Shown here piece by piece: positions 4,687-43,552 of a DNA stretch of 64,000 nt. Every line of letters starts with the position of its first letter. Position 1 is the first letter of the stretch. A program made the translations under genes and the position numbers. Source of the DNA: Ulota crispa (lineage: Eukaryota; Streptophyta; Bryopsida; Orthotrichales; Orthotrichaceae); assembly GCA_963920765.1 (NCBI GenBank), contig OY987247.1, forward strand, positions 10,140,471-10,204,470, written 5' to 3'. Below the pieces are notes generated by a model that was not told the origin of the DNA, made no database searches, and saw only the letters and a program-made list of their open reading frames with translations.

Positions 4687-4814
4687 AAACTGCTGGCGTG
4701 GCCGGAAGTCGGCGAAGGAAGTTGTGCCACCTGTGCTGGACGTGCTGTTCGTGCATGTCCTGCTAACTTACTGTTTGTTTTTTGAGGACTTTACAATCGA
4801 GGGTACAAATTTAA

Positions 4815-5045
4815 CCCTTAAACGACTGAGGAGCCCTTTGCGGCCAATACAATATTTTGTATTTTTTTGTATTTGGAATGCATCCACACCTTTACTACAT
4901 TTGAGATCAACAAAGAAATTAGAATATAGATTAATGCGGTTCTAGTGAGCTAGTCAAGATCTCAAATCAAAATTTTTATTTGTAGCAAATGTTAATTATA
5001 TGGCAACGTATTTACTATGCAATACGTAAAGTGGTTGTTTAAGGG
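4815..5045. mobile_element. TTAA-flanked MITE, family 1, 231 bp (copy D)
   Basis: It is bounded by TTAA at 4811-4814 and 5046-5049. The ends are CCCTTAAACGAC... and ...GTTTAAGGG, inverted repeats. It carries no coding capacity. The copy at 30270-30501 is the same element in the opposite orientation. TTAA duplications with CCC ends are the pattern of the piggyBac superfamily, although Kolobok also targets TTAA. It lies in the upstream region of the cyclophilin gene. Confidence 0.8.
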
Positions 5046-5049
5046 TTAA

Positions 5050-5415
5050 CCCCTAAAGGTCAAAGAGGACAATTATTGTCCTTTCTTGGTGCAAAAAAAA
5101 TTAGTCTGGGGTTGGAAAAAAAGCTTTTTTTTATTCAATTTTTTTTTCAAAATCGGTCATTGCAAGGTTCTTCACCACAGAGTGCCAAAATTGGATTGAT
5201 TGAAAGTCCTCATGTTTTCAAAACTAAAATTTGTGAGAACATTCACAACCATGGTTGATAAGTCCCCTCTTGCCTTTCTTACAAATTTCATGTGGGCAAT
5301 ATGCACTACTGACTTTTCCTACTTTTTGAAGCAATACTATAGGTTGGGCACAGCATGAATATTTTAGCTGTACAGTACAAGGCAGGCCACAACTATGGGC
5401 CTTGGTGTTTAAGGG
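5050..5415. mobile_element. TTAA-flanked MITE, family 2, 366 bp (copy E)
   Basis: It starts CCCCTAAAGGTCAAAGAGGA and ends ...TGTTTAAGGG, between TTAA at 5046-5049 and 5416-5419. The first TTAA is shared with the neighbouring family 1 copy, so the two elements abut. It is related over its whole length to 43192-43548 and, inverted, to 16497-16877. Confidence 0.8.
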
Positions 5416-5419
5416 TTAA

Positions 5420-5755
5420 TAAGGTAGGAGGTTCTAAAAGAGTCCACATTCTAAAACCGCCTACCTCCTCAAATGTACTCTATTTGTATGTGTTGTTTTC
5501 ATAGTTTTCAACAATGTACAAACAATGTACACTTGAGGAGGTGGGTGGTTTTAGACTTTAGAACCCTATGCCATTTCAACTTCAAATTTTCATAACTAGT
5601 TCCACAAAGTCCTAAAAAATATGAAACAACTTAAGTTAGCTGCCAATTCCTTTTTACTTTCAAGGAAAATTTACTAAAAAATATTTCAAAAAGCTTTACC
5701 TCCCCAAAATTAAGTTTCAGCTTTTAGATGGTTGATTCATGAGCCTCCTACCTTA
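5420..5755. mobile_element. Inverted-repeat element with GGTAGGAGG termini (copy M)
   Basis: The termini TAAGGTAGGAGGTTC and GAGCCTCCTACCTTA are inverted repeats. A second hairpin lies just inside them (about 5448-5560, arms built on CCGCCTACCTCCTCAA and TTGAGGAGGTGGGTGG). The same terminal motif bounds 21003-21405. It starts immediately after the TTAA that closes the preceding element. I could not settle its target duplication. Confidence 0.6.
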
Positions 5756-5756
5756 A

Positions 5757-6148
5757 ATAATCATGAACCCATGCACAATCTGAGAGCAATTCTCCATGAT
5801 AGTGTGAAAAAGCTTAGAATTGAAATACAAGTTTTTTTCCAAATTGAGGCTTGCAAATGGTCCAATATGTGATTAGTTTGGCAATTGGGTCTGCTATGTT
5901 TATATGGAGTATAGCACTTTATGTTATTTACAACTTACATAAATATGTGCCTTGTTAAGGGCTTTGCACTTTTGAATAAGTCTCTAAAGTTATCATTTTT
6001 TAGGCACTACGCCTTCTTGCACAATATGGAGAATTACAAACACAAGCACATTTTTTTTATAGTTATTGTCTTTTGTTTAGTTATTGCTAATAGCTATTGC
6101 CAAATCATTGGTACTTGAAAGAAGCTCCTCACCAAAGGAGCTGCTCAC
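5757..6148. repeat. Dispersed repeat, copy 1 (other copy 54832-55240)
   Basis: About 390 bp can be aligned by eye with 54832-55240 in the same orientation, including the shared blocks GCCTTCTTGCACAA and TGGAGAATTACAAACA. The class is unknown; neither copy has an open frame I recognise. Confidence 0.65.
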
Positions 6149-8517
6149 GTGCAAGCAATGTGTTCTTTGGTGCCACACTTTCCACATCACACTTCATTTG
6201 GCATCCTCCATTACACTAGAGCCTCATAGTGGCTTTTTCATACTAGTTTTTTTTGATGATCTAGAGTCAACCCTCCTTTGATCAATTGACGTGTTGAATA
6301 ATAATTTAGCTAAAATAGTTTTATGCATGTGTCCCTATTTGAAATAATTTTTTCACTTCATGGTCTTGCTTGTAAAATAAACTTGGATTATAAGGGAGAG
6401 ATGTTTTCTTCCTAACTTACGTCTCTTCTCAATTTTAACTTCACTATTTTCAATTTGCTCTTTTGCTATTTTGTATTCATCCACTGAACAAATTTTGGTT
6501 CATTTTTATTTATTTTTCATTATTTGGTTACCTCCCTTTCATGTTTGATTACAAGCGACAATGTTAGTTGCTACTTGTGATTCACTTTAGACTTCAGAAA
6601 GAAAGTTATATTTGCATATTCCTGAAATTGCAAGTAGTGAAAGAAAGGGTCATTTTAAAAAGTACAATAAGTTCTTGTTATTAATACAAAATTTATGCTC
6701 TAAATAAATAAAAGAAATTGATGGTAATGAGAAAAAAATCATAAGGTTCTAGATAAAAATCATTACTTTGTGTAAAGTTGAAAAGTTTGAAAACTCACAG
6801 CAATACTAGTATTTTTTTTACTCTTTAACAACAACAAGTCTTAGTAAAAGTGTATGTTGTGGTACAAATTACCTTAAGATAGATCTAACTATCATGGTTA
6901 TATAAAGAAATAAGAAATTTCAAGAAAACAATTGGGCCTTTGGCATTTTGCAAAGATTTTTTTGTTAAAGAAAAACAAATTATCTTCTCACACAAAACTT
7001 CTCAGGTAGGGGCTTTTATTATACAATTTATTCAATCATTTGTATATTTCAATATATTTATAAATCCTCCAAGGATGTTGGATTTTTCTAATTGTAAAGA
7101 TTTCCTAAAACATTTTGAATACCACATTTATACTTCAAGTTGGGATCAAAATGTTCTAACATCTACCCAACTCTAGTTGAATTGCAATTTTTGAAGTACT
7201 GAACTTTAACACAAAGATAAAAGAATAAGATCCATGAATGATTCAAAGACAATTATAGTATACTCTTATCAAAAATTTATACTAAACCAAAATATCAAAA
7301 AAGTTCATTTTCTATTATTTAAAAGAGTTTTTACAAGAAAACACTTTGAAAAAAAAGACAGATTGTTCAATGTTAACATCTGCAAAGAATTTTGCAGATT
7401 TTGTTGTTTATAACAAGAATTTCATTAGCAAGATTTAGAAACATCATGTAGGAATGTTTTCTTAATTTTTCATTATTCTTTGAGAATGCAATAAAGAGAA
7501 TGTGAAATGTGTGTGCATTCAAGAACATTGAGAAACATACTGAATTTATTAGATTTACTTAGGTTCATTCCGAGGGTTATTCATTGAAAGCACAAGCTAA
7601 AGTAACTAAACAAGTGAGTAATCTTATTAGTTGAGAGTTTAGAATTGAATCTATGATTTAAACATGTCAAAATGGAGCAACGCTTGCTTCAAACTCGTCT
7701 CTATTCCAACCTTGAAATTCAAAAGAGCCTTTCATTTTTAAGTAAAAAAAAAAATCAACAAGCAACCAAGAACAAAAAAAACAATTGAAGAAGAGAATTA
7801 GAGAATAAAAAATTAAAAAAGAGAAAAAAAAGGAGACAAGTATAAAACAACAAAAATGTAGAAGAAATTTTTGCAAGCTATTGAGTGCTTTGTTTCCATT
7901 AATACAAGGGAAACTATCCAAAATGACAAAAATATGTTCAAATTAACATGGCTAAATCTACAGAAATTGTTCAATTTGACAGTCTTTTTGTCATTTTGGA
8001 TACATTTAGTCAATTTGGACATGTTAATTAAGACACAATTTCTTGTAGTGCTATTTACAATGAATATTGTTTAAAAAAATATGCTTTAACAAAATCTAAC
8101 AACTCCAAGGCCAAAAATTGGCTTTCCGTTCTTAGCAAATCCAATTCAATAGTTTTGCCTATATTAGATCTCATTTGTTTGATATTAAGCTATATTTTGA
8201 AAAATCAACTTTTACTTTTAGTATAAAGGGCCGTTCTCAAAGTTTGACCAATTAGATTGAAGAGATTTTGCCTATTCTAGTTCCAAAACAGCTTACACAG
8301 TTGGTGTAAAGCAGACCTTACATTTGCTTTGCAATGCCACTATAAATCCTATAATTCTAAACACAATGGCATCACTAAGGAGCTCAACAAAGAGATCAAG
8401 ATGACAACAAACTCTAAAAAGCAATCATCTCTCATGTTGCATAACCAACGGTTCAACATATGATTCAAAATGAAGACTTTAACAATTTATTTCTCACAAG
8501 GACTCAATCACTCAAGT
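6149..8517. other. Very AT-rich stretch, no gene seen
   Basis: No protein-like frame was found. A short inverted repeat lies at 7917-8003, where TATCCAAAATGACAAAAA pairs with its reverse complement, giving a hairpin with a loop of about 50 bp. Confidence 0.45.
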
Positions 8518-8826
8518 AAGGTAGACATACCTTTCTCCGACCAATCTCCAAAGCCGACCCCTACATTTGAGGTGTTCACCACTCACTATGAACCCAAAGT
8601 GGAGCAATGAAAACTATTTGCACAAACAAATCTTGTCGCATGTCAATTGCTTAGCTAGTTTGGGAGGGTTGATATTGGGACCGTCAAGTGCCATTACATG
8701 AACACATCCAAGTAGTTTCAAGTTTAGTCTACAGTTTCTTTTAAGGTCCTATGTGTTATAACTTTACACTTTAACATAAAATATTCTACAAGACTTTTTT
8801 CCACAAAAATAACATTCCATGAGAGC
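8518..8826. repeat. Dispersed repeat, copy 1 (inverted copy 32938-33242)
   Basis: About 300 bp matches the reverse complement of 32938-33242, including TGAGGTGTTCACCACTCACT and AACCCAAAGTGGAGCAATGA. The class is unknown and no coding frame is recognised. Confidence 0.65.
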
Positions 8827-9149
8827 GTGTTGAAAAACTAATCGTACATTTTTTTCCTAAAGTTTCAAAGACCTTGCAGTACCCCGTCACTATGTGACAT
8901 TGAGTTCACCTAGACCTAGCTTCAGACAGGGGAGAGCAGGGCCGTAGGATCTGTATAGTGGCTATGCTCTATGGATTTTTACTAGGAACGTCCAAACGGG
9001 AATGTGTAGGGGCCAGTTTGTGGAAATTCTAGAGTTCAAGCTGGGCCTAGCTCAGGCTTGGCTTGGCTCAAGCTTGGCTTGGCTCTCTTTATTGCACAAG
9101 CTTCAATTGCTTGGGGCCAGGGTGGAAAAGTTTTGAAAATGTAACTAAC
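8827..9149. other. Intergenic stretch with a short simple repeat
   Basis: A degenerate CTTGGCT/CTCAAG repeat occurs around 9040-9090. Nothing else is recognised. Confidence 0.35.
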
Positions 9150-9470
9150 TTATGATGAATTTTGTATTTAGGTTGCCTTGACAATTAGGTTGCCCTACCC
9201 TAGTAAATTACCTCATGATTAATTATTTGATCACTCAAAGGCATATGCAACTCTCTAAATACTTAGATTTCACATAATTTATGATTTGGGAGCCATTAAT
9301 TTGTTTTTTGGCAACTTCATTGTTGTTAACATGCCCTTTTTAAATTTGTGTGTTGCAGTAAATTTTCATGAAAAGTAATGTAGCAGCAGTGAACATCTAT
9401 ATAGTGTGAAATGTCAAGAAATTGGTGTGGAGCAACCTAAACGCAATATTTAGTGTAGATATTTACCTTT
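9150..9470. repeat. Dispersed repeat, copy 1 (other copy 63225-63530)
   Basis: It aligns with 63225-63530 in the same orientation, sharing AAATTACCTC, GATTTCACAT and GAGCAACCTAAA in the same order. Divergence is considerable. The class is unknown. Confidence 0.55.
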
Positions 9471-10040
9471 GAGTTAGGAAATTTTGAAGTCACGTTTGGA
9501 TTCAAAGATTGTGATATGGTCTAGAACCATGGAGGAGAACACAACATATCAACTTTAACATAGGAGGTAGATTATTATCTTTACCTTTGTTTGTAAAAGA
9601 AGTTGTGATTTTTCACCTTGGTCCTCCAAATGCATATGTGCAATAGTCCAATCCCTTGAGCTCAAGTTCCCCCTTCCAAATTGGGAGGTATTTTGAAGAG
9701 TATATTCAACCTTTGTACAAAATGATTTTATTGCTTTTTGAGATTGCAAGACTCTCAACATAATTGAATTTCAAATAAAAAACTTGGACATACAATGAGC
9801 AAAGAAATGTTAATTCAAGTGATTTTGTACAACATAAAAAGCAAAAGATTGTTAGTTAACACATCATTTTGAAATAATTTGTGTTAATGTAATTTTGCAA
9901 TGAGTGGGTTTGATAAGGAGCTTTTATTAAAGTGAGTTAATTGGATGTTCTGTATTTGAATGTAGATATTCAAGAAAAAATCATTTGAATTCAAGAAACC
10001 CACAACACAGGATTTGGTGATAATGATTAAACACTTTTAT
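9471..10040. other. AT-rich stretch, nothing recognised
   Basis: I see no gene, RNA or clear repeat structure here. Confidence 0.35.
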
Positions 10041-10687
10041 CCCCTAAATGCCCAAGGCACCACATTATGGTGTTGACAATACTTTGAACTTCTATAAAAT
10101 CTAAGTAAGTTGCTATTTTTAGTATACTTTATTCTTGAACTATTCTTTGAAAGTCTATTTTTAGTATCAAAAAATCAATTTTGTAAATGATTTGCTATGA
10201 TTTTTCTATTCAAGATTTTGTGCAAGGGTGTCCATTACAATCTTGACTTTTTAGTGTTGAGAGGTTTTGGAAATGAGCCTCAAACACACTAGACTAGTTG
10301 GAGAAAAATTTACACTAGAAATTCATTTTAAAATTTGTAGAGGAGATTTTGGAAAGCCATAAATTGATTGGAGTTATGTATGTTATGTCTTTTAACCCCA
10401 TATTTTTCATGTGACTATTTTTTAAGATTAGACATGTGAAAAGAGGATTGAAAAACTTCAAGTCATTTTCACAATTTTAACACCCTCTTGATCAAACATT
10501 ACAATCTTTCAATCCCTAAATGACATTGTTGTGTTATATTTTCTTATGTGACCTCTAACATATATAGTTTGATCATGTACTATTACATTTTTTTTTTAAA
10601 ACTAATACAAATTATCAAAGTTTTGGCTCTTTGTTCAACTTAGAATAGATTCTTAGAAGCTCAAAAAGTGTCTTAGGCATTTAGGGG
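10041..10687. mobile_element. TTAA-family MITE, family 3, 647 bp (copy I)
   Basis: The ends are CCCCTAAATGCCCAAGGCAC and ...TTAGGCATTTAGGGG, imperfect inverted repeats. It is followed by TTAA (10688-10691) and preceded by TTAT (10037-10040), which I read as a mutated duplication. The interior shares blocks such as TAGTGTTGAGAGG and GAAATGAGCCTCAA with the copies at 10823 and 21551. Confidence 0.7.
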
Positions 10688-10822
10688 TTAAACGAACTCA
10701 TCTTATAATTTTTGAAGACCAAAAAGAACTTGCTACTATTTGACTTATTTGAAAGATTCTATAGTAGAACGATCACATGTTTTTTTAACTAACATTCAAA
10801 TCAATATATATGATGCAATTAA

Positions 10823-11447
10823 CCCCTCACCTCCCAAGGGGCCCAAACCGTGCCCATCATAGTTTTTTTCAAAGATGCGCAACCTTCTTTCAAGATTTTT
10901 TTAGTAGTTATTATTTTATTTAAATTCTTATTGAAGTCTAGTTTCAGCATTAGGAGTTTGATTTTGAAAATGAATTAACATGATTTGTCTATTCAAAATT
11001 TTGTGCAAGGGTCTCCATTGCAAATATTCACTTTCTAGTGTTGAAGGCTCTTGGAAATGAGCCTCAAGTACACTAGAACTTGGAGAAAAAATCACATTAA
11101 AAATTCAATTTAAGAAATTGTAGAATAGGTTTTGAGAAGCCGTAAATTGATAGGGATTATGCATGTTATACTTTACATACTCATATTTTTTTGTTACCCT
11201 CAATTTTAGGTTTGAGATGCAAAAGGAGGATTGAAAAACTTCAAATCACTTTTGCAGTTTTAACACCCTCATGATCAAACATTATAATCTTTCAATCCAT
11301 GAATGATATTGTTGTGATTTCTTTTCCTATGTGATCTATAACATGTCTATTTTGAATTTGTATGGTTGCACTTGATCAAAATGCCGGCATTTTGTTCACT
11401 TTCAAGCAAATTTTGAGATACTCAAAAATACCATGGGCGGTGAGGGG
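10823..11447. mobile_element. TTAA-flanked MITE, family 3, 625 bp (copy H)
   Basis: It lies between TTAA at 10819-10822 and 11448-11451. The ends CCCCTCACCTCCCA and TGGGCGGTGAGGGG are inverted repeats. The interior is collinear with the neighbouring copy only 135 bp upstream and with 21551-22349. Confidence 0.78.
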
Positions 11448-11451
11448 TTAA

Positions 11452-13106: not shown

Positions 13107-15684
13107 ATGTCGAAAGCTAGGAAAATGCAATGCACACTGCAGAAGTTTCTATATGATAGGAGGGTTCCAGGGTTTAGTGATCGTGAGATTGTTGTTCCAG
13201 TACTTGATTTGCTAATTTTGGGGAGTTCAAGTGGTGCGAGCGGATCAACGGAGGAGGACTTTGTCATAACTAGAGTTGACAATGAGGGTCTAGCATTAGC
13301 AAAGGATCTGTGGTTATTGCCGCAAAGGTCATTGCAAAACTTGCAGTGGCAGGCGCTGCAAAGAAAAGGAAAGGGAAGGTCGTGTCCCCGTTGCCAAGAG
13401 AAAATGGAGGGTCCTGTCCGCTGCAAAGAAGGGAAAGGAGAAAGCCAAGTGCTTTGCCGCGGCCGAGAGGTCTTTGCAGATGGAGTTGGCTGGCAAGAGA
13501 AAAAAAGGTTACAAATTGAATTGCCAATTCTAAGATGCTTGGGCAGCAAAGCTGCCATGGGCCGAGAGTGTTGTGGATGCAAATGGAGGTGTGACATAGG
13601 TGCGGTGCAAGGTGTGCTCCGAGGTGGAGGGGAGGGAGAAATTGCTGGTTGCAAAACTTGACTCACTCTAGAAGCATGCACGGTGACATAAAGCATTGTG
13701 CAACACTAAGAAAGTGAAGCGCGGTGAGCACTTCTACTTGGGTACTAACCCACCACGTCAAGAATGAGCATATTTACTTCGCAAGGAGGGGGACACAATT
13801 TTGCAAAAGGTGGCAATGGGGGTGGTTCAGGAGCGGCAGAAGAAGATGGTCCCATTCCGCACTCAATCCAGATTTTGTCCCAGGGTCGCTCAATATGTGA
13901 TTTCACTTGCATGCGGGAGTTGCTGCTCCTTTTGGGCACACCAAACCTACCTTGTAAGCATTGGTGCAAACCATCAGGCTAGAAATGGCAGAGGCTATGG
14001 CTTCAGTAATCTCCTGGAGGTTGAAAGAGACTCTTTCGAAGGCCAGTTGCATCTTAGTGACGGCTGATGAAGTCACTTTGATAGACAACCAATTGTGGTT
14101 GTCTGTTCACATTTACGTCCCTCACTTCTTTGGGCGCCACTCTCTTCTACTCCAGCTGCAACGGGTTGTAGGTGGGTTGAATGTGGCAAACCTATTGGAG
14201 ATGATACATTCTGCCCTAACTACTAGTGGAGGCCTCACAGACGAGCAAATTGGTAGTAAGCTTGTCTGCTTTGGGGCTGACGGGACAAGTGTATTCCAAA
14301 GGTGTAGGGCTGGTGTCACGCAGCAGTTGGTGGAGAAGTATGCGCCCTTTGCCATTGGGGTGCAATGCATGGCGCACAAGACAAACTTGGCAATTGAAGG
14401 TTTGTCCAACCTGCCCCTAGTTCACAAGTTGGAAAGTTTGTGTACTCAGCTTCATTCCTACTTTCTACCTCACCAAAGAGGCACCTTGAGTTCACAAAGC
14501 TAGCGGAGGTAGTGGAGACAAAGGGATTAAAAATCCTCAATCAAATGTCCACTAGGTGGATCTCCCTCTTGGAGCCGCTGAAGAGGATACTCATGAACTA
14601 CAAAACCCTAATTGTCAAATTCAGTGAAGATTCCAATCAGGAAAGTTCAGCAAAATGCAACCTATCACTCCTTTGCGATGTTAGCACTTTGTTGGCTCTA
14701 CCATACGTTTACCCTCTGCTTGAATGTGTGCAATCCTTGATCAAGTTTGCCCAATCAGGCAATGCATGCATCTCTGATTACATTGCAGCAGTAAATATTT
14801 GCCAAACTGAACTACAGATGATCTATATTGATACAGCTACGTCCTACCAGCCTACTTACTTTCAGATGTTCTTGAACATAGTGAGTGACTACTCACACAC
14901 AGTGACCCAAGATTGGGTCACCAACCTTCCCAGTGGAGGTGAAAGTCTGTCTTTTTGAATCAATGGGCATTCCTATCCTGCCCATAGCATTTGTCTTCTG
15001 ACGGGTGTGCAGAAACCAGTCAGCCATGCAGACTTCAAATCGGCAATCACGTCCGTGAAAGGGTAGTGCACCTCCGCGGCTGAGTTGCTAATTCAGCAAT
15101 TGATGAGGCAGTTTCCTCATTTGGACATGATAGACGCCCTTGGGGTAGTATTCCCTCAGTACTGGTTGAATTCTTAGTGCGACGAACTCTTCCCCGTTCA
15201 CATGCAGGTGTTGAAGAGTTGGTTCTGCGAGTCTAGGACTGCACGGTCTGGCCGGCCTGACCAGCCAGAAGTGACGCAGTTCACGGGTCTTTTGGATTCA
15301 CAGCAGTTGGACTTGCAAACACTGTTCTTTAAGGTGACGATGCGAGCTCAAGCTCTGAAGGCTATGGAGCCGTCCTTCATAACAAATCTTGTTACAAAAT
15401 TGTGGCAGCAGCTTGGCTGCAGCGTGCTTCTGCTGAACAAGCTCTCGAAATTCATGAAGTTAGCACAGTTCGCAGTGACAGTGGTTCTAGGTAGTGTTGA
15501 GGACGAGAGGACGTTTTCAACTCTCTCGTTCTGTAAGAGTAAACTCCGCAACCGACTGCAAGGTCACCTTGAGATCGTGGTATCCATGTACTCGCAGCCC
15601 TTTTATGACTTGGAGAGCTTCACCTATGTGGAAGCCTTTGATACTTGGCAAGAGGATTGTGGAAGAGTGGGGGCAGACCAGTAA
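13107..15684 (+). pseudogene. hAT-superfamily transposase, decayed
   Basis: Fragments in several frames assemble into one plant hAT transposase. In order they are: an N-terminal zinc-finger-like segment (about 13545-13680, CKVC...KLDSL...KH), a catalytic-core part (13961-14460, with CFGADGTSVF, CRAGVTQQL and CMAHKTNLAI), a long helical middle part (14440-14958) and the C-terminal dimerisation region (15350-15684, with GSVEDERTFS and KLRNRL). Disabling changes include in-frame stops at 13597, 13669, 14956, 15064 and 15175, and frame changes near 13970 and 14463. The element cannot make a full transposase. The surrounding DNA is more GC-rich than its flanks. The superfamily call is firm; element borders are not defined. 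Confidence 0.85.
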
Positions 15685-16492: not shown

Positions 16493-16496
16493 TTAA

Positions 16497-16877
16497 TCCT
16501 CAGAGGACCGTTGGGTGGCCGTGGCCTGCCCACACTATAGGTTCAACTGTATTTATATTGTACCTTCAACAATGTTTTGGTTGATGGACACCAATAATAT
16601 TGCTTCTAAAAGTTTCAAAAGTCAATAGTGCATGCCGACCTCATGAAAATTGCAGTATGAGCAGCTTGGGACTTGACACCATGATTTTAAATTTTCTCGC
16701 AACTTGGGTTATCTAAAAATATGAGCATATTTGATAAGATGGTTTTTTGCCTTCTATGATGGATCATGTGTTTACGGTCACTTTGGAAAAAAGCAAATGA
16801 AAAATTACTGTTTTTTGTTGTACATAATTTTTTTTCAGGGCCAAAGAACAATAATCATCCTCATGGGCATTTAGGGG
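16497..16877. mobile_element. TTAA-flanked MITE, family 2, 381 bp (copy K)
   Basis: TTAA occurs at 16493-16496 and 16878-16881. The left end is degenerate (TCCTCAGAGGACCG); the right end is ...GGGCATTTAGGGG. The interior matches the reverse complement of 43192-43548, for example AAGTCAATAGTGCATGC, AGCTTGGGAC and ATCTAAAAATATGAG. Confidence 0.7.
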
Positions 16878-16881
16878 TTAA

Positions 16882-20129: not shown

Positions 20130-20167
20130 GCCGACGGTGGGTGGCTTTCAACGGAAGAGGAGGCCGG

Positions 20168-21405: not shown

Positions 21406-21550
21406 AGGGCTTCCCCACTCGCCCCTGGGCCTTTGGCACCCTCACCCCCGCAAACGCTAGGTCATCCCTCCACTCCAAAGTAACTGTGTCCAATGGACCA
21501 ACTCAGACCAGCCTCCCCCCTCATGCGCGGCTTACAAAAAAAAGTCTTAA

Positions 21551-22349
21551 CTGTTTGCCCATGCCCAAGCAACCAAATTTGGGTCTCAACAAATCTTTGA
21601 AGTTGAGTAAAACCTTATCAAATCACTTTTTTCATTATTGTTTTTCAAAATTAGTTTGTATTGAAATCTATTTTCAACATCAAAAACCTGATTTTGAAAA
21701 TAAAAGTTGATGATTTTTCTACTCAAGATATTGTACAAGGATATCCAATGCAATCTTGAGTTTTCTAGTGTTAGGAGATTTTGAAAATGAGCCTCAAATA
21801 CACTAGAGCTTGGAGAAATAATCACATTAGAAATCCATTTGAAAAACATATAGGAGTAGGTTTTGAAAGTCATAAATTGATTAAAGTTAAACATGTAATG
21901 ATCTTACATAACATTCAGTAGCCTGAAGAGAGGCTGCCTTTCCCTCTCTTTGTATCATCCACAAACTTGATCTTGACAAAAAAAAAAAAAAAGGGTGTGG
22001 AATATTCCACACCATTCTCTTGGAGGCAGGGTAGCCTTTACTAGTGCTACTGAATGTTATGCCTCATATTTTTTTGGTAACCAACTTTTTAGATTTGACA
22101 TATGAATGAGGATTAGAAAACTTCAAGTCACTTTTGCAATTTTAACACTCTCATGTTCAAACATTATAATCTTTCAAACTATAAGTGATATTGTTTTGCT
22201 TTCTTTTCCTATGTAATCTTTAACATGTTTAGTTTAAATTTGTATGGTGACAATTGAAAAAAACTTGATGAAATTTACAAAAAGGTTGAGTGATTGTTCT
22301 ATTTCATTAAAATTCCAAGAAGCTCGGATAGGGCTTGGGCATTTAGGGG
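21551..22349. mobile_element. TTAA-flanked MITE, family 3, interrupted (copy J)
   Basis: TTAA occurs at 21547-21550 and 22350-22353. The right end is ...GGGCTTGGGCATTTAGGGG; the left end is degenerate (CTGTTTGCCCATGCCCAAGC). The interior is collinear with 10041-10687 and 10823-11447 apart from an extra 153 bp at 21908-22060. Without that insert it is about 646 bp, matching the family. Confidence 0.7.
21908..22060. mobile_element. Nested 153-bp inverted-repeat element
   Basis: Its 15-bp perfect terminal inverted repeats are ATAACATTCAGTAGC and its reverse complement, and the pairing continues imperfectly for another 20 bp (GGCTGCCTTTCC-like). Inside lie an A-run and a perfect 18-bp palindrome, GTGTGGAATATTCCACAC. 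It interrupts sequence that is continuous in the two sister copies, so it is a later insertion. The superfamily is not assigned. Confidence 0.65.
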
Positions 22350-22439
22350 TTAAAAATCACTTAAGCAAACCATTGGGACGGTTAGAGTCGAGTAATCAAT
22401 CGTTGGGCATTTATTGGGACTGGCCCAATTTCTTTTGGT

Positions 22440-25105: not shown

Positions 25106-25110
<5 letters not shown>

Positions 25111-27356: not shown

Positions 27357-30151
27357 CTAAGAATTGTAATGGGACCACAATTTAATTCTTCGATCATGTG
27401 ACACAGTCCCAATATATTTTCCATCTGCAATCAGCAACACATCGAGTCAGGAACTTGCTATAAGCGATAAAAAGTGTACATACAACAGATTGCACGAGTA
27501 CTGCAGTATCCCGTGATGTTGTAAATGTTTTCATGTCCCAGACGCAAACCTCGAGCTGTGTAACTCTATTTGGCATAGACATGACCCTGAAATCACAGAA
27601 TACTACAGTTGCGGTGACATCTAGTTTAATCAACAAAATCGATCACGTAATATACTCCAACAGCGCATGCCTAAGCAACGTTAGCTCACAGTTCGCAGGC
27701 ACAGGATAGCCTACAAAAATGAGCCCAGCAACCTCTTGTCACAGCCAGCATATTTTCATATACTGAAATGTAACCCAAAACCGTAAGGCATGCCAGAATG
27801 CCTTACCTGGTGACACGTCAACTCCAGCAACCTTGCTTTCAGGACCCACCAGAGTTTTCACTGGTTTAAAATCACGAGCCGACCATATCTGCAAACCACT
27901 TTCCTGATTACTCTTGTTAACACGTGCAAGGATCCATCAACGCTGAAACACTCCACAATAATAAACGAGGAGAGTTTCTATAAAAATGAGATGAAATGAG
28001 ACAATTCAACAAATTATTTTAAACCTAATACAAGTAAAGCCCTAAATTTTGAAATTCCTGGAACATCAGCAGAAGAGCATAAGCCACCAGGTTGCAGAAT
28101 AGAAAGACGTAAGTATTATACCCGTGACGTGTTGTCGAACGAGGCTGTCACCAAGAAGTAACCTTCTGAAGGTTCGAACTTGACTTGAGAGATCAGAGAA
28201 TTATGAGCGGGAATGATGTAGCGACACTACTTCTTTCGCAAATCCCATATTCTGCATGTGTGGTCATCACTACCCGTCGCCAAATGGTACCCATTGGCAG
28301 AGAAGTCAACGCCATACACCTGCTCAAACCAAACCCAGCCCAACCTCCATGTCACCTGGTGAGAGAAATGAAATTCCTACCGCTCGACTGAGTACAAAAA
28401 TTGAAAGAGCCTTGCAAAGAATGGAGTCAAGAGGATTACTCAGTCCTGAGACTGTACCGCTGAACAGGCACAGTACGATCACAAGACGCTGAGAAACTTG
28501 GCACAAAGACAATCAAAAAGGTAAAAACGATGGTAGGTAACAAGCATCGTGTGTGTACAGGCTTTTCCTAAACTTACAGGTTTGACATGACCTTCCAAAG
28601 CCAGGATGCTCTTCCCAGTTCGCAAATCCCATACACGAGCCAATGCATCCATTCCACATGACGCTGCTAACGCCCCATCTTGCTGAAATGCAATGCCATA
28701 GACACTACGACTGTGCCCCTCTTGTAACAAAAGCTCGATGCCCGTGCTCACATCCCAGAGCCTCCACGTTTTATCAAAACTTGCAGTTCCAAGGTAGGCA
28801 CCGGAGGGGTGGAATGCAATGCGGGCAAGCCGGTCCAAATGACCTTCGTAGGATTGTAGTTTTTCCCTTCGAGACTCCACAGAATGGCAGTCCGATCAGC
28901 AGAGGCTGTGGCAACGTTGCCTGCCCCGGGGTCGAGGGTCTTGCACGCGCCAGGATGGAACACGACATCGGTCACGCGTTCTGTCAAGTAAGGCGACAGA
29001 TGGCGTGCCAGAGCACCCAATCTACGGTGGGCAGGACACGGAAATGCTGCCATGGGCACATTGGCCCTGCTGCAAACGGATGGACAAGAGCCAGCAGCAC
29101 AGACGGCACGCTCCAGAGGCCCGAAGATCTGCTAATTTCTCTAGGTATGATGCTATGGTATTCAAAATTCGACGGAATACAGTGGCTAGTACTCCGCAGA
29201 CTAATTCCCGTACTAAACCTATGTATCAAAGCGGAACTGTTGTTCTCGATTATTGTAAGAACGGTAAAAAGCTGGCTGTACATCCCAAAGAGAATATGGC
29301 GAACGATCGACCTAATCCCTCCTGATATGCGGCCTACTTCTTTCAACAATGTGGGCCCAATCAAGCATAATTATACCCTAAACCCCAGAGTGCAGAAAAC
29401 AATTACGAGAAGCCTTTAGTTACCCGGTAGCCAGCAAGGACGCGTTCGGTGAGAAGGCACAGGAGGAAAGCGGCCTGCCATCCCCGATCTCGCTGCAGTC
29501 CAGAGACGTGTTTGCCATGTATTGCAGCAGCACTTGCTCCGTTTCCGCATCTTCGTCGTCCTCGTCCGGGTCTGTTCGCTTACGCTTGGTCCTCTCAACA
29601 CGAGTCTGAGAGCGCGGCAGGGAAAATCGCAAGACCTCTTTGCGGCACAGGAGAAGCTCAGAGGAACCCTCCGTGTAAAATAACTGCAACGGCGCAACAT
29701 CATCATCTTCGGAAACAACCTCCTGCGCTTGGATCAGCTTGTCGAGCTCGCCGTCAGCGTCCAGCTTGGCCATGATAGCGCGCAGGCGGTCACGACGCTC
29801 CATCTCGCGCTCGCCAGGCAGGGTAACAGGGTGGCCGAAGTGGCGGAGGCGCTCTTGGACAGAGTTTTCATTGGTGGGTACAGCCAGGGCCGAAGCGCGG
29901 CGTTTCATAAGCAATTGTTGGACAAGGTGTTCCTTGCGGTCGCGAGCGCGCTGGCTCGCTTCAGAGACGTGGTATAAGGTGAGCTCGGCATCGACGACAG
30001 CGCCCGGGAGGGGAGGCCCATGCGAAGGGGAATCATCCAGTTGCTCGTCATCGGCGTCGGAGGAGGACGAGGCGTCGAGGTGGGCATCCATGTCGACGTC
30101 GGTGGGAGCAGGAGGGACAGAAGCAGCAGGACGCAGGGTGGCATCGGCCAT
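27357..30151 (-). pseudogene. PRP4/LACHESIS-like U4/U6 snRNP WD40 splicing factor, disrupted
   Basis: PRP4 is a core U4/U6 small nuclear ribonucleoprotein subunit of the spliceosome. Exons I can place are 30151-29424, 29128-28578 (with frame breaks), 28319-28122, 27888-27807 and 27424-27357, all with GT-AG borders and compatible phases at the 3' end. Exon 1 has an acidic, Ser-rich start and the splicing factor motif (NENSVQERLRHFGHPVTLPG). WD40 repeats follow, with [54 protein letters not shown] and TVSHDRRIKLWS. Lesions: an in-frame TAG at 28229-28227 after DLRKK, a one-base frame break at the A5 run 28861-28865, and a further frame change and weak conservation in 29128-28980. An upstream ATG at 30208 is in frame, but 30151 better fits the family. 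Either it is a recent pseudogene or the assembly has errors. Confidence 0.75.
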
Positions 30152-30269
30152 ACATAGACACAAGCAAACTTGGGCAAGGGCAGGGGCAGTCTGTAGCTTA
30201 GTCGTCACAAGAAGGGCAAAAGCAGGACGGCAACAGACGAGACGAGGTGAGGATGGTGGTGCCGGTTAA

Positions 30270-30501
30270 CCCTTAAAGGACCGCTCTACGTATGGCATAG
30301 TAAATATGCTGCCGTATAATTGGCATTTGTTACCAATAAAAAGTTTTGATTTGAGATCTTGACTAATTCACTAGAACCGCATTGATTTATATTTTAACTT
30401 CTTTGTTGATTTTGAATGTAGTAAAGGTGTGGATGCATTCTAAATAAAAAAAAATATGAAATACTATATTGGTCACAAAGGGCTCCTCGGTCGTTTAAGG
30501 G
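30270..30501. mobile_element. TTAA-flanked MITE, family 1, 232 bp (copy F)
   Basis: TTAA occurs at 30266-30269 and 30502-30505. The ends are CCCTTAAAGGACCGC and ...GGTCGTTTAAGGG. It is the inverted counterpart of 4815-5045 over its full length. It lies about 120 bp upstream of the PRP4-like start codon. Confidence 0.82.
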
Positions 30502-30505
30502 TTAA

Positions 30506-30910
30506 CCCCTGAAGGGCCTGAATGTCCTTTGCGGTCATAATGTGCTATATTGCTGGTATGTGGGGGCTATCGCGGCATTTTCAAACTTTTGTGTACAGTG
30601 ACAACTTGTAGGAAATTTCAAGCCGGATCTGGTTGTGCATGTTTTTTGAGAAGAGACCTTGTCAAATTCTACAAGCTGAGGTTTGTATCCGCACTTGCAT
30701 ATGGTATAGCTACGATACTTGATTTCTATGTCGACGAGGCCACCCTGCCTTCACAACAACCCAAGCCGTACTAGACATGTGGCCGTATTGTAGAATTGCA
30801 TGGCTCATCTCTGGGTGACTAAACGCCTGTTGAAGTCGCCTAAACCATGTATATCTCGGTCCGCTATAGATACGTACCTGTATCTTGGAGGCCCAAGGGC
30901 CCTTCAGGGG
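30506..30910. mobile_element. TTAA-flanked MITE, family 5, 405 bp (copy G)
   Basis: It starts CCCCTGAAGGGCC and ends GGGCCCTTCAGGGG, a near-perfect inverted repeat, between TTAA at 30502-30505 (shared with the family 1 copy) and 30911-30914. It is less AT-rich than the other families and non-coding. Confidence 0.82.
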
Positions 30911-30914
30911 TTAA

Positions 30915-32252: not shown

Positions 32253-32265
32253 GTAAGCTTACTAC

Positions 32266-32877: not shown

Positions 32878-32937
32878 ACTTCAAGGTCTTGGATAATTCA
32901 AGAAAAAAATCTATAGGGTTAGCCTTTCAATAAGTTA

Positions 32938-33242
32938 TCATGGAACGTTATTTTTGTGGAAAAAACTGTTGTAAACTATTTTCTATTAAAGGGAAAAGTT
33001 ATATCTCATAGGTTCCCTAAAAGCAACTTTAGACTACCCTTGAAACTCTTTAGATGTGTTCCTATACATGCACTTGATTGACCCAATCCCAACCCTCCCA
33101 AACTAACTCCTAAGCTGGCATGTGGCAAGATTTGCTTTTGTGGCATTCATTGCTCCACTTTGGGTTCATAGTGAGTGGTGAACACCTCAAAAGTAAGGGT
33201 TGGCTTTGGATACCGCTTGGGTATGGAGAAGGTTACCTTACC
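32938..33242. repeat. Dispersed repeat, copy 2 (inverted copy of 8518-8826)
   Basis: It is the reverse complement of the repeat at 8518-8826, shared over about 300 bp with moderate divergence. Confidence 0.65.
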
Positions 33243-34925: not shown

Positions 34926-36065
34926 TTAACCTTTTAAGGACCACGAGACCATATTTTGGTCGCTGGGAGTTGTTTTTGGCTTGTAGGTTGAAATCGTTCA
35001 ATAATTTGGAATTTGGTCTTGAAGTATGCATGTGATCACAAGAATTTTGCATCTATTTAAAAAAATAACAATGCAATTGGGTATGTGAGTTGATAAATAA
35101 TGGTGTTTATACGGCATGGCTTCAAAATACGTATCCAATTTTTGTCAAAGATGGTTTAAAGCAACAATACAATACATCAAGTATGCGAGAAGAATGTCAA
35201 ATTTCAATTGCACAATTCTAAAAAATTTCAAATTGCTTAAGAAATACACTTGTATTGTTTTCATATATGGTAGTAGTATAGTTGTAGTACTTGAAGATCT
35301 ATTGAAATACTGTTGACATATTAGCTTTAAAATTTGTCATCCTACATTTAAGGCCAATTCTTGATTTTTTTCACCAATTGGATTTTCCAGGTTAATTATC
35401 AAATTTCTTGTAGAACCATTTTAGGGTAGCAAAGAAAATGAGTTTTTTGACCCTTTTTGTCCACTTAGCTACACCTTGTGATTGCTATTTTTGTCTATTT
35501 TGTGTGAAACTAGTCTTGTTGGAAAGGTGGGAAACCCTACTTTCTAGAAATGCAAGGCTCTTCTCAATCAAAGCTTGCATGAAAGGTTAACATTCAAAAC
35601 CACACAAGCATGAAATACTATAGATTTTCCACATACGAGTCACACTAGTGGGAAATGGGGCACACCACAATTGTACCTGTACAACTCCTTGTGAAAAACA
35701 ATTGCATGGTAGTTGAAATGAGAATTGAAGAGTAAAAATGCTAACATGGACTCTCTCAAGTTGTATTGCAGTTGTGTTTACAACTACGCAAAACTATGAT
35801 ACAACTGCATCTGACAATTTCATCCCTCACCAACAATTTTAGTGAGTTTGCGGATGAAAATTAGGGATGCAATCCATATTTTTCATCATAGTTGTCTTGT
35901 AGTTGTGTCTTGGTTTGATTCTACTGCAATACTACTCAGTAACAACTGTGTCACGACTGTAACTTATTTCTTTTATTACATTCTCTTTACTTTAATCATG
36001 TAAATGAATTTGGCAATTTCTTTCTGCCCTAGGCAGTTGTTTATGCTCAAACTGACCTTTTTAAG

Positions 36066-37360: not shown

Positions 37361-37802
37361 CCAAATGAGCATATTATATTTTTGTTTTCACATATTAACA
37401 AACCTTTCATGTTTTTTACATTTAATATGTCAATTGTTTTTTTGTTTTTAAAATTTTCCATTTTAAAAAAGTACAATACTTAGATTAATTTCCATTTCCA
37501 ACTTTTATATTTTACAAGTATGTGATGTTATTGATTAGAAATATTGTTTGCAAAGTCAAGCACCGCAAACATCATTGCATATTGCTAATAGTAATAGCTT
37601 TACAATTGCAATCAATTCCAATACCATTCTTATACTTGTGTTATAATTGTTTTTGAGTTGCAAATGTAAAGTGACAAACAATAAATTAATTAAACAATTG
37701 CTCCACAATTGTAATTAATTGCAATATTATTAATTGCAACTATATCCTAATTATTTTACAATTGTAAATAAGTGGTAATAAACATGCAAACAAATAAACT
37801 AG

Positions 37803-38220
37803 GGAATTGATATGTGCACACCCAAGGTTTGATATATGCACACTTGAAGGAGGGGTAAATTTTAGATATCTATCATGAACAAGCTGAATTTGGAAAGTTC
37901 AAATTTTGATTTCAATTTGGACACCTTGATTTAGCCTAGATCCACAAAGAAAAATAGAATTGAACAATGCCTAGTAGAAAGGCTTCATTAAGGGGCAAAT
38001 TATTATTTTAACCCTTGTTTGTAAAAAAACTAAGCATTTCCACAGGCGTTGTTCAATTGTATCATTCATTGCGGGTCTAGGCAAAACCAAGATTTCTAAG
38101 TCCAAATCTGAAATCAAACTTTCCAAATTCAGCATGCTGATAATAAGTATCTAAAATTTAACCTCCCTCCCCCTTTAGATGTGCATATATCAAATCCTGG
38201 ATATGCACACATCAATTCCA
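37803..38220. mobile_element. Foldback MITE inside the CACTA element, about 417 bp
   Basis: The inverted ends are GGAATTGATATGTGCACA and TGCACACATCAATTCC, and the pairing extends about 100 bp inward on each side (TTTGATATATGCACA, TTAAATTTTAGATA, GCTGAATTTGG). It is non-coding. It is nested inside CACTA, which is itself nested in a TTAA element. Confidence 0.7.
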
Positions 38221-39902
38221 TAAACAATTGTACTATAATTAACAATGACTTAAAAATGTTTAAAGCTTTCAATAAAAGTTATGATCATTAATACAAAACT
38301 CATATAATTCTTTATGATTACCCTACTTGTTTTTAAATTAGTTTATTTCATAAAAATTATCCTCACTAAAAACTATCTATTTCCTTTTATGTTAATTAAA
38401 AAATTAGTAGAATATTAATATATATATTTTAAAGTTTAGATATTAAATCTAAATTAGTTATGATTATGATCTAAAATCTACATAGAAGTTTTTGCATATT
38501 AATAAATTTCAATAAGTATAAATTTAAACATCACCAAAAGCACTATTATTTAATTATGCATTTTTATTTGTTAATTTTATTAATAAGAAGTTTCAAAAAT
38601 CTCAATTTAGTAAATAGTAATGTTAACTGGGTTTTTGTATGCTAAATTGGTAGTAAAGAAACTTAAAATATGGTGAGTTCATTTTAAAAAGTAAAAAAAA
38701 TTACCTTGAAAAATTTCATAGTTCATTGAAATTTTTAATTTAATTTTATTATTTTAGAGTAATCAACCAATCAACTTCTCAAAAGCAATTGCCATTTATT
38801 TAAGTTATTTGACATTTTTGTAATTGATAAATTATTGGCTTTATTTATCAAAATCAATTTTCCAAATTTCCTAAATTTCAGATTTTTCCAAAAAAGGATT
38901 TTGAAGTTTTAATAGGTTTAAAAATATATATATGTGTTTTTAAAATATAATATTGAAGTCGAATAAAAACACTAACAATAGATTATAAAGTTCATGTATT
39001 CCAAAAATAAAATCATGTATTAGCCCAAAATATTAATTGAGAGTTATGCATTCTCTAAAATTCATCTTTGTTCTTCTAATTTTTTGGAAAATCATAAAAA
39101 GTAATAATCAAATGCTTCAGTTAAAAAAAGTCCAATTTAGATATGTAGAAGATATGAAACATTGTTATTAAATTTATGACAGTCTTTGAATTTAAATGCT
39201 ACTTTATTGACTAAAATTCAAATGCAATTAATGATTGTAATAACTATATTAAAAGACACGCTAGTATGAAACTCTCACAAATTGAGTTGGCCTATTTTTA
39301 AATTGTATTTCTAAGCTTAATCTCCTTAACCTTGTAGTGTATTTCAAAACTTACAAAAGGCTAAATTAGATTGCAATAGCAATATTAAAAGAAACAATAT
39401 CACTAAAAGTTAATAATCAAAGTTTTGATAATTGAAATGAATTATGTTCCAAGAAATGCTAATATTACCAATAATTTTAGTTATTTTTTGAAGATAGAAG
39501 ATCTAGAGTACAAAATTTCACTTACTTCTTCCAAAATAATTCACTAGATTCAAGTATTAAATGTTAGAACTTCAAAAATTGCAAACTAATTTGTTTTTTA
39601 TGCTTTGCAATTTGGATTTTAAAATGTAAGTAGTCTATTTTGAGGTAGAAATGTGTTTTAAGCACATTTGTTATGTTATATTTGCCAAAAACACATTTTC
39701 CTTGGAATTATAAAAGCATGCAACCCTAAAATTGGATTGCATTTTTACACTCAATCACTTGAAGAAAAATATGCAATACATGACTATGCTGCAACAACTA
39801 TACAACAACTGCACAATTGTAATAAATTATTTTGCAATTGTTTCACAGTTGTTATATAGTCATTTAGTTGTTGTGCAGTTGTGGTGTAGTTGTTTATTGC
39901 TT

Positions 39903-39915
39903 GTTTTCTTCTAGT
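39903..39915 (+). other. Second CACTA-like terminus inside the CACTA element
   Basis: TTTTCTTCTAGTG is close to the canonical right end of plant CACTA elements (TTTTCTTGTAGTG) and is preceded by dense TGTAGTTG/TGCAGTTG repeats. It suggests a second, perhaps truncated, CACTA copy nested in or fused to the larger one. I found no matching left end with the same 3-bp flank. Confidence 0.4.
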
Positions 39916-40599
39916 GAATGGGGACTCTTGATTCAAATTAGGGTTTGTAGTTTGGAGGCTGGAGATGTGGCCGCCACCCTTGAACCCTTGCACCCAAGGA
40001 TAAAAAGGCTTGGATGGTTCCTCTCTTCCACTCATTCTTCTCACTTGTAGGGCAAAGCTATGCCAAGATTTTCTGGGAATGAAAGTCCCTTCTCTTTTGT
40101 ATTAGCTTGTATCATTTGCTTGCTGCAAGTTTGAATTTGATTTTTCTATTTTGAAATTTTTTGAGATTCTTCCTTATGCTAGTAGCTTTCCAATGACACC
40201 AAGCACGCTAGATTCTACGTTTTGAGGAGTTTTTGGTGAATTTTCTAGTAGAAGGATGTCTACTACAATGGCAGTTTTCAACCCAACTTCAAAATTCCAC
40301 ATCTTGGTGAGTTTTAGCTCAATTTTTTTGCAAGTTTGTATGCTAGCTATGTGGTAGAGTCTAGTTTTTGAAAAAAATTGAAACCCTTACCTTGAGTTGT
40401 TAGTGAAATGTTGATTGCTTCTTGAATGCATAGTGGTTTTCAGCTCTATGTGTGCTATTAGGTAGTTTTCAGAAAATCATATCTCATTGTGTGTATAGGA
40501 TCTTGTGATGTGGCTTATATGGTTGCTAATCCTTGTTGATCCAAATTTCAGAAGTGGTTTTTTGCAACTTTTAGGTTCATTTTGAAGTTTTGATAAGAG

Positions 40600-41830
40600 T
40601 TTAGAGAATGTAGGGTTTGTGTGCTTAAATCATACTATTAGCAAGAGTTTGCAATTTATAAAAGCACAATGTGCAATTAGAGTGCAACTACAATAGATTT
40701 TAGGATTTAGGTTAATTCCTATTGCAACTGGTTTGCAATTAAATTTCAATGTATTGACTACCAATTTTTGCAAATGATCTATGACCTTATCAAAATTGGT
40801 TGACAACTATATTACAACTGGTTATAAATTATGCTAAAATTGTAGCATAACTGTGTTGCAGTGTTGTTGCATCCCTTTACAACTGCTTTACAATTACATT
40901 ACAACTACATTACAACTGTAGTGTTGGATTTTTTCATGTGAAACTGTTGGATTATAATTGAATAACAACTGAAACTTGTTGACTGTTTATTGTTGTATGA
41001 TAGTTGTACGCATGATTGTAATTACCTAGTATACATTTTCCTACAAAAAAAATTACAACAAAATAAATAAAATCAAGTAAAAAACAACTACAAAGTATCT
41101 ATTAAAATAGTCAAATATCAATATTTACGAAATTAGTGTACATAACCCCAGTACAACTACACCACAATTACACTACAATTGCATTACAATTGTGCTACAA
41201 TTATAAAACAACTAAACTACAACTATAGAACAATTACATTACAACTATATATCAACCATATCAAAACTGCATTACATAATTACAATACAACTACACTACA
41301 ACTAAACATTATATACACATAAACCAAAGTACAACTAAACTACAACTACACAATAATTTATTACAACTACACAGCAACTTCATAGCAATTGTGTTATAAT
41401 TGCACTATAATTGTCTTACAAATGTGTCTGTCATGTGTCACATTTTAAAAAAAAATCTAGGTAAATAAAATAATAAAAATTTGACCTTAACAAATGAAAT
41501 TTTGACATATGTCAGAGGTGGGTTCCTTTGACAAGTATGTGTCAGAGGGAATTTATTGGAACATTGGGATTTGTGCAAAAGATTTCTAGCCACAAAGGAA
41601 AAAGAAGGGCAGGGGGTTGAGGTAGTGAAAGTTTTGAAGGGTAGAGGATGATTTTCATGTGGATGAAATATTTGTAGTTGTAAAAATGTGACGTGCACTG
41701 AAATAAGTCCCAAACAACTAAGAAGTGACTCTAAGACAACTGCATTAGTGATACAACTGCTAGGAGTCATTTAAAAGTCATGCCATGTCCTTTACGACTC
41801 TTAAGCAGTTGTAAAATGAGAGTTATCTTT
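40600..41830. repeat. CACTA right subterminal repeat field
   Basis: Dozens of copies of the 8-10 base motif ACAACTAC / ACAACTGC / ACAATTAC lie at irregular short spacing. They are the expected transposase-binding region of a CACTA element. Confidence 0.7.
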
Positions 41831-42184
41831 TCCCCCAATTCTATTAGTGTCACTCAATCATTATAATGTTTCACCTCCAACGGTAGATCTAGCTGAAATT
41901 TTGGTGCTTTACAATAAACAAGGTGTACTTCCCATTTGTATGGTTAGATTGTTGAAAATGGGTCCATATTTGAAACAATTCCAAATCTAAGTTACGGCCC
42001 TTGTTTTCAGTGGATTCTATGAAAATGGGGGTGGTCATTAAAGGATTAATTCACCTCCTTCTATTTCCCTCTTTCCATTTCTCTTCACCTCCCTCCAGTT
42101 CTTTTCCCTATTGCATTCACCACCTTTTTTTTTTATGATTCCAATATTAGACCTTGTGAACTTGTACAATACAATGATGATGAC

Positions 42185-42282
42185 ATGGAAGAGCAGGTCG
42201 TTTACCTAGTTAGAACAAATAGCGCATCTTTGCAAAAGTTAGAGAGAAAGCAAGGTGGGTTGCGAGTTGGAAGGCTGTTTAA
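42185..42282 (+). pseudogene. PIF/Harbinger nuclease gene, fragment 1 (N-terminal)
   Basis: An open frame begins MEEQVVYLVRTNSA and ends GGLRVGRLFN exactly at a TTAA. Skipping the two chained TTAA elements (42283-43552), the frame continues with IDRGAKESHKRIIHDYF, the usual start of plant Harbinger DDE nucleases. The continuity across the insertion is the main evidence for the call. Confidence 0.7.
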
Positions 42283-43187
42283 CCCTTTAAAGACCACACA
42301 CATTTTCCTAAAATCCACTAGAAACAAGGGCAATAAAACTAGATGTGCATTTGGAACAAGTATGGACCTAATTTGAATAATCCAATTGTACAAATGTGAA
42401 GGACACCTTGTTTGTTGTAATGTATCAAAATTTCAACTAGATCTATTGTTGGAGGTGAAATACTATAACGATTGAGTGAGCCATATATGAATAATCTCTA
42501 GTTTTTCATGCTTGTGTGGTTTTGAATGTTAACAATTCATGCAAATTTTGATTGAGAATAGCCTTGCATTTCTAGAAAGTAGGGTTTCCCACATTTCCAA
42601 CAAGACTAGTTTCACACAAAATAGACAAAAATAGCAATCACACGGTGTAGCTAAGTGGACAAAAAGGGTCAAAAATCCCATTTTCTTTGCTACCCTAAAA
42701 CGGTTCTATAAGAAATTTGATAATTGTTATGAGAAATCCAATCTTTGAAAGCAATCAAGAATTGGCCTTAAGTGTGGGATGAATTTTTTTAAAATAAAAT
42801 GATAGCATCATTTCAATGGATTCTCAAATACTACAATTATACTACTATTGTATAGAGAAACAAAACAAAAGTGTTCCTTAAGGAATCTGAAATTTTTTAA
42901 GATTGCAAAATTGAAATGTGGCATTCTTCTTGGATGTCTGATATATTGCGTTGTTGCTTTGATCCATTTTTTACCAAATATGGATTCGTATTTTGAGGCC
43001 ATGATGCATAAACACCATTATTTATCAACTCCCATATCCAATTCCATTGTCGTTTTTTGGGTTGGATGCAAAATTCTTGTGATCACAAGTGTTCTTCAAG
43101 ATCATTTTCCAAATTGTTGAGCGATTATACTGTATAGGCCAAAACTACTCTCCCAAACCAAAATATGGTTTGGTGGTCTTTAGAGGG
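42283..43187. mobile_element. TTAA-flanked MITE, family 4, 905 bp (copy B)
   Basis: TTAA occurs at 42279-42282 and 43188-43191. The ends are CCCTTTAAAGACCAC and GTGGTCTTTAGAGGG. It is the uninterrupted sister, in inverted orientation, of the element at 34930-42045. It has no coding capacity beyond a short frame at 42808-43002 shared with its sister. Confidence 0.88.
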
Positions 43188-43191
43188 TTAA

Positions 43192-43548
43192 CCCCTAAAC
43201 GTCCAAGAGGACAAAAATTGTCCTTTAGCTCTAACAAAAGATTTTGTAGTCCAAAGAAAATTTTTTTTACATCTAATTATTTTCCAGAAGTGATCATAAA
43301 CACGTAGTGCATCATGGAAGGTAAAAAAAACATCAAATACACTCATATTTTTAGATATCCCAAGCTGTGAGAAAATTCAAAATCACGGTGTGAGGTCCCA
43401 AGTTGCTCTTATTGCAATTTCCATGGGATCAGCTTGCACTATTGACCTTTCCAAAATTTTGAAGCAATACTACTAGTGCCCATGTGCAAAAAAATTGTAG
43501 ATTGCTATAGGCAAGGCATGCCACAATGACCCATCCGTCCTTTAAGGG
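43192..43548. mobile_element. TTAA-flanked MITE, family 2, 357 bp (copy C)
   Basis: It starts CCCCTAAACGTCCAAGAGGA and ends ...CGTCCTTTAAGGG between TTAA at 43188-43191 (shared with the preceding element) and 43549-43552. It has the same family and orientation as 5050-5415. Confidence 0.85.
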
Positions 43549-43552
43549 TTAA

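Follow-up and report, generated by a model that had tools for sequence, protein, structure and literature searches.

Short TTAA-flanked elements and their probable piggyBac-type partners in the genome of a likely moss

The DNA analyzed here is a 64-kb stretch (the window) of a 274.8-Mb genome, which was searched as a whole. The window carries eleven short non-coding elements (A to K in Table 1) with common ends beside TTAA. We conclude that these are very probably non-autonomous piggyBac-superfamily elements of a likely moss, resembling miniature inverted-repeat transposable elements (MITEs), and that they were probably mobilized by the transposase of relatives of 5–7.5 kb. A piggyBac-type transposase coded by these relatives in the same genome would recognize inverted repeats with CCYY-type ends together with a palindrome centered on base 25 at one end, excise the element, insert it at TTAA, and duplicate the TTAA. 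We observed the TTAA duplication, the empty sites, transposase-bearing elements with like ends, and, in short and long elements alike, the base-25 palindrome. These transposases probably moved these particular short families, and by homology to the solved piggyBac complex, a cysteine-rich C-terminal domain may bind the palindrome and the hairpin chemistry may be the same. The piggyBac group is best known from animals; piggyBac itself is ordinary, and it is the host, the scale, and the transposase architecture that are unusual.

One cyclophilin gene points to a moss as the most likely host. The comparison covered the 120 best of 7823 proteins; in it, the named plant relatives of highest identity were the mosses Ceratodon (91%) and Physcomitrium (83%), and two relatives without an organism name were 94% identical. 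A flowering-plant host was dropped, the top-scoring cyclophilin record (labeled Carnegiea) being only 71% identical against the 91% of Ceratodon. An earlier reading of the window (the original prediction) had compared the elements with the transposons of flowering plants; with a moss as the most probable host, that comparison is beside the point.

Short elements and their target site

The original prediction listed eleven elements with common ends in five families, and these exist. With up to two mismatches, the terminal pattern TTAACCCYTWAAGG matches the window 20 times, against a mean of 2.27 and a maximum of 6 in 100 dinucleotide shuffles, and pairwise alignment sorts the elements into the five families of Table 1, with within-family identities of 74–87%. 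When 12 of 16 matching positions were required, the window gave 15 TTAA-anchored inverted pairs, and in six of these both ends start with CC; no such pair occurred among the 38, 191, and 174 inverted pairs anchored on AATT, TATA, and ATAT, respectively, which served as control words. Summed from their coordinates, the elements make up roughly 9% of the window. None of its 29 open frames of at least 130 codons lies inside an element, and one covers the first four bases of element G. The claim that nearly all elements are flanked by TTAA holds on both sides for nine of the eleven and fails for C at its left and for I, whose right end is lost; the left ends of E and F have decayed inside their TTAA. 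The terminus in the first row of Table 1 is an extra end that the prediction did not list.

Throughout the assembly, the exact pattern occurs 19,694 times (9877 + 9817), against 9 occurrences (3 + 6) of the reversed control pattern, and CCCCTAAAGGACC occurs 9597 times, of which 8154 lie directly after TTAA. For two families, 40 candidates each were scored, with the query itself excluded from the identity ranges. The 932-bp family (8907 first-look candidates) gave 39 full copies that were 89–95% identical to the query and two partial copies at 85–86%, while the 913-bp family of element J (2391 first-look candidates) gave 39 copies at 89–93% and one more at 82%. By this measure, the two query copies have no near-identical relatives among the copies scored. 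Because the closest scored copies for the two queries reach 93–95% identity, window copies of one family 74–87%, and most transposase stretches hold stops, much of the transposition probably represents past activity.

Table 1. Features of the window and of the transposase loci. Element strands are given with respect to the first-listed member of the family concerned.
Feature	Position	Strand	Remarks
Terminus of a further element, TTAA + CCCCTAAATG	602..615	-	Palindrome ACCAAATTTTGGT centered on bp 25; one end of the element located
Element A, non-coding, 239 bp, family 1	4811..5049	+	Right TTAA common with element B
Element B, non-coding, 374 bp, family 2	5046..5419	+	Left-end palindrome AGGACAATTATTGTCCT centered on bp 25
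Element C, non-coding, 655 bp, family 3	10037..10691	+	TTAT left, TTAA right
Element D, non-coding, 633 bp, family 3	10819..11451	+	TTAA both sides; 84% identity to L041 8894-9546
Paralogous empty site, single TTAA	11610..11719	-	Counterpart of the insertion with the 915-bp element L036 8674-9588
Element E, non-coding, 389 bp, family 2	16493..16881	-	Left end decayed
Element F, non-coding, 807 bp, family 3	21547..22353	+	Left end decayed
Element G, non-coding, 240 bp, family 1	30266..30505	-	87% identity to 4811-5049, inverted
Element H, non-coding, 413 bp, family 4	30502..30914	+	
Element I, non-coding, family 5	34926..35861	-	Right terminus lost; 83% identity to 42279-43191, inverted
Element J, non-coding, 913 bp, family 5	42279..43191	+	
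Element K, non-coding, 365 bp, family 2	43188..43552	+	Left-end palindrome AGGACAAAAATTGTCCT centered on bp 25
Module A	L026 2518-3150; L027 2424-2771; L028 6814-7548; L029 8374-8619; L031 7388-7681; L037 1174-1749; L038 2658-3017; L040 2106-2675; L041 7544-8047; L042 2489-2860; L044 7013-7270		
Module B	L040 3442-3744; L041 6337-6570; L025 3087-3206; L031 6466-6633; others		

The TTAA is a duplicated target and not part of the repeat, because clean paralogous empty sites hold a single TTAA. The 915-bp element of locus L036, a member of family 5, has flanks that match, together with one TTAA, two element-free paralogues, one in locus L033 (96% identity across the junction) and one in the window (84.5%), each with a single TTAA. 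The original prediction had named empty sites lacking a single TTAA as the finding that would speak against a duplication, and these sites keep it. The 6141-bp transposase-bearing element of L038 (1732–7872) also has TTAA on both sides, and its flanks are uninterrupted in L035, where the single site reads TGAA. In three pairs of window elements (4811/5046, 30266/30502, and 42279/43188), one TTAA is common to both neighbors. Such tandem junctions number 103 genome-wide, against about 54 estimated by arithmetic for random TTAA insertion; special tandem targeting was considered and rejected, since so mild an excess needs no special mechanism.

Transposase-bearing relatives

The partner on which the original prediction was conditional exists, and it is of piggyBac type. 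A genome search with the profile PF13843 (piggyBac transposase), with scoring of 116 out of 528 first-look candidates, gave at least 120 matching stretches (best E 1.3e-73), and the same profile had no match in any of 14 control genomes. Stops are present in 110 of the 120 stretches. All seven open frames submitted match the Pfam piggyBac domain, the conserved Asp residues are retained in 28, 24, 29, and 27 of 32 copies, and profile, solved-structure comparison, and fold agree on the piggyBac identity of the transposase. A Cys/His motif is visible by eye at the C-terminus of the open frames of L030, L034, L038, and L041, and the cysteine-rich motif of L041 aligns in sequence with database relatives.

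Twenty 10-kb loci were examined, a low number of stops being part of the reason for their selection; TTAA-CCY ends span the transposase in 13 of the 20, and 12 other tetranucleotides give 0–1. Four of these 13 loci (L026, L027, L030, and L035) probably pair with the ends of other elements, leaving nine; L026 and L032 were resolved separately as copies of one family, about 70–76% identical, that start and end at the same places. Altogether, 11 of the 20 loci are resolved elements of 5.0–7.5 kb with the transposase within TTAA-CCY inverted ends. L035 was rejected as a full element, its left end belonging to a truncated short element, and L030 was set aside on suspicion of the same fault, a foreign left end. 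The 4-kb transposase loci L010–L024, where the end pattern was matched just three times and loosely, were set aside because the elements are longer and their ends become visible in the 10-kb loci. End sequences agree within an element and vary between families (CCCCTTGAGG in L031, CCCTTTAAGG in L038, and YCCCTCAACRCCCC in L040), which would be expected were every transposase to have ends of its own; some start with TCC or CTC, and one end of L026 has TTGA. The L038 end CCCTTTAAGGACCG closely resembles the window end CCCTTAAAGGACCG at 30266.

Upstream of the piggyBac domain lies a conserved stretch of about 90 residues (module A), which had no Pfam match among the frames tried and was not found in database proteins (best E 0.43), some of which may lack their N-terminus. 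Between it and the transposase domain stands a weaker conserved stretch (module B). Left-out models, with the database group outside the sequences searched, recovered module B in L041 (E 2.3e-6), L029 (2.1e-4), L037 (0.011), L040 (0.018), and L025 (0.022), gave 0.58 for L033 and 10 for L031, and did not recover it in L042, L026, or L044. Its fold may be Tudor- or chromobarrel-like, a five-stranded barrel. Arg-Gly-rich stretches were also noted by eye in the N-terminal extension. The conserved module A and the weaker module B are new here, and such unnamed N-terminal modules suggest partners or targeting absent from the solved animal enzymes.

A palindrome at base 25 and comparison with known systems

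End positions were counted from the first base after TTAA, and a palindrome was defined as having arms of six or more. Such a palindrome is centered on bp 24–26 in 14 of 84 ends, in 13 of them exactly on 25.0; shuffles gave a mean of 0.40 and a maximum of 3, and the other five-step centre bins contained 0–2. Under a slightly wider definition of the ends, 14 of 90 were centered on 25.0 and every other centre had at most 3. The window ends at 615, 5046, and 43188 have it, and the other window ends are without it. Some of the 14 ends are from the same family and GGACA is common to several arms, which otherwise vary (AGGACA, GTGGCT, TGACCA, AACACCAAA, GGGGACA, and others); since the arms differ, the palindrome is not one inherited sequence. 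Two of the 14 ends (L036 and L041) belong to transposase-bearing elements, and among the seven such elements examined the palindrome is found in four (L031, L033, L036, and L041), on the 5' side of the gene, where L042 has an imperfect one. As a feature read from sequence, the palindrome ties the short and the long elements to piggyBac by anatomy. A fixed palindrome with changing arms would be a simple rule for how piggyBac enzymes discriminate their own ends, and the arms could help to match orphan short elements to their transposases. A second palindrome zone at about 79–89, where one bin holds 12 of the 84 ends, was rejected as mostly A/T runs. The putative subterminal motif ACCRTAC, with seven hits of which five are at positions 100–110 of ends, is only suggestive and could be a second binding site.

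The palindrome at bp 17–33 of one piggyBac end is bound, in the solved complex, by two cysteine-rich domains, and the minor groove is narrowed about bp 25 (PMC7351741). The piggyBac of Trichoplusia ni (PDB 6x67; PMC7351741) shares with the moss elements a PF13843-type transposase, the DDD(D) residues, the C-terminal cysteine-rich motif, TTAA duplication, CCC ends, and a palindrome at bp 17–33 with its centre at about bp 25. Unlike it, the moss elements are 5–7.5 kb long, have a long N-terminal extension (modules A and B and the Arg-Gly-rich stretches), and occur alongside thousands of short elements. A 19-bp palindrome is present on both ends of piggyBac at different distances, whereas the moss ends have no peak further inside. 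The closest solved sequence to the moss transposases is piggyBat of Myotis lucifugus (PDB 9c0f), whose left end has an imperfect palindrome three bp past a motif at bp 11–16 and whose right end has none (PMC11707139). The moss elements resemble it in having the palindrome on one end, in the spacing of the bp 11–16 motif, and in the A/T-rich centre, whereas the arm sequences differ and the left-end site is present three times in piggyBat against one site seen in moss (PMC11707139).

The original prediction also expected an unusual plant lineage. This stands for the scale, the architecture, and the lineage, and does not stand for bare presence, piggyBac being already listed for plants. It appears in a superfamily table covering groups including land plants (PMC4438587), is stated for "plants" (PMC3902484), and is listed in a review of angiosperm MITEs (PMC10004981), and it was counted in the repeat table of the fern Ceratopteris (1230 copies, 122 kb; PMC6890710) and in Stipa (one copy, 75 bp; PMC8319324). 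These entries share the superfamily label with the moss elements and are labels or low counts, the text examined describing neither a transposase nor empty sites nor the architecture of the ends. Among the matches listed in the open-access literature, none described a piggyBac expansion in a moss; a "piggybac" in a Niphotrichum moss paper proved to be "piggybacking" and hence no record. Before, plant piggyBac consisted of scattered labels, and the present genome gives a worked case with transposase, ends, duplication, empty sites, and large non-coding progeny.

Lineage and alternative explanations

The 32 moss transposase copies have a median identity of 34% (range 26–84%). In a tree of these copies and 37 database proteins, with the root drawn at the midpoint, all 32 moss copies and 22 database proteins without an organism name lie on one side of a 99/95 branch, and two insect rows and 13 rows without an organism name lie on the other. 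The moss copies form several deep branches interleaved with database proteins lacking an organism name. A profile search found 53 relatives, one of them from an ant and the other 52 without an organism label. The database proteins P0150, P0151, P0155, and P0157, whose lengths reach 915 residues, stand as a group of their own in the same region of the tree, and P0150 and P0157 have a long N-terminal extension of their own.

Several points weigh against the proposal that piggyBac transposases of this genome moved the short families. The short families share no sequence beyond the terminal repeat with the 11 resolved long elements, so that no direct parent was found. The profile search scored 116 of the 528 candidates, and the 20 loci were picked in part because they had few stops; nine of these loci have no resolved end pair, and the tetranucleotide controls do not cover fortuitous pairing with short-element ends, which are abundant. 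The palindrome is confined to 14 of 84 or 14 of 90 ends, and L038 and L040 have none. Two empty sites also depart from expectation: that of L002 against L008 (78% identity) has CCAA where TTAA is expected, and that of the L038 element in L035, a single case, has one 4-bp TGAA and not TTAA.

Kolobok also uses TTAA, and the short families without a transposase-bearing match beyond the terminal repeat would fit a reading in which the piggyBac copies are bystanders and the short families themselves belong to Kolobok or to some other superfamily that uses TTAA. This is very unlikely, considering that the transposase-bearing piggyBac copies share the same kind of TTAA-CCY ends and that the short elements contain the base-25 palindrome known from piggyBac. 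A search of the genome with PF20700, which we take to represent Kolobok, gave no match, but the 14 control genomes gave none either, so that the empty search does not count against Kolobok. Still less likely, to the point of being negligible, is that TTAA is part of a repeat spread by segmental duplication or by a Helitron. The great frequency of TTAA beside the ends (38 of 55; 8154 of 9597) would agree with it, but empty sites retain one TTAA or one altered copy, a single TTAA is common to neighboring elements, and inverted ends and a transposase are present; the empty sites of L033 and the window refute it unless they are rare precise deletions.

Recent horizontal transfer from moss-dwelling animals, or contamination, would account for two protein searches in which every relative bearing an organism name was an insect. 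We regard it as quite improbable, given that the copies lie on long contigs (that of the window, C6, is 22.9 Mb) and that the moss copies, diverse as they are, are split from the insect rows by the 99/95 branch. An ancient transfer could still have taken place. Within the piggyBac reading, it is possible, although rather doubtful, that an ancient and diversified bryophyte lineage is involved whose transposase has two additional N-terminal modules, one of them a chromobarrel- or Tudor-like reader that would direct insertion to marked chromatin, and that the palindrome, fixed at base 25 throughout the superfamily and specific in sequence to each transposase family, acts as a lock-and-key code read by the cysteine-rich domain.

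Other features of the window were noted by eye. The tandem pair G/H (30266–30914) adjoins the end of a minus-strand open frame at 29420–30265, apparently a splicing-factor WD40 gene, and thus lies directly upstream of the gene. Open frames at 13958–15684 resemble a decayed hAT transposase, and frames at 60051–62758 resemble exons of a GDP-mannose pyrophosphorylase gene.

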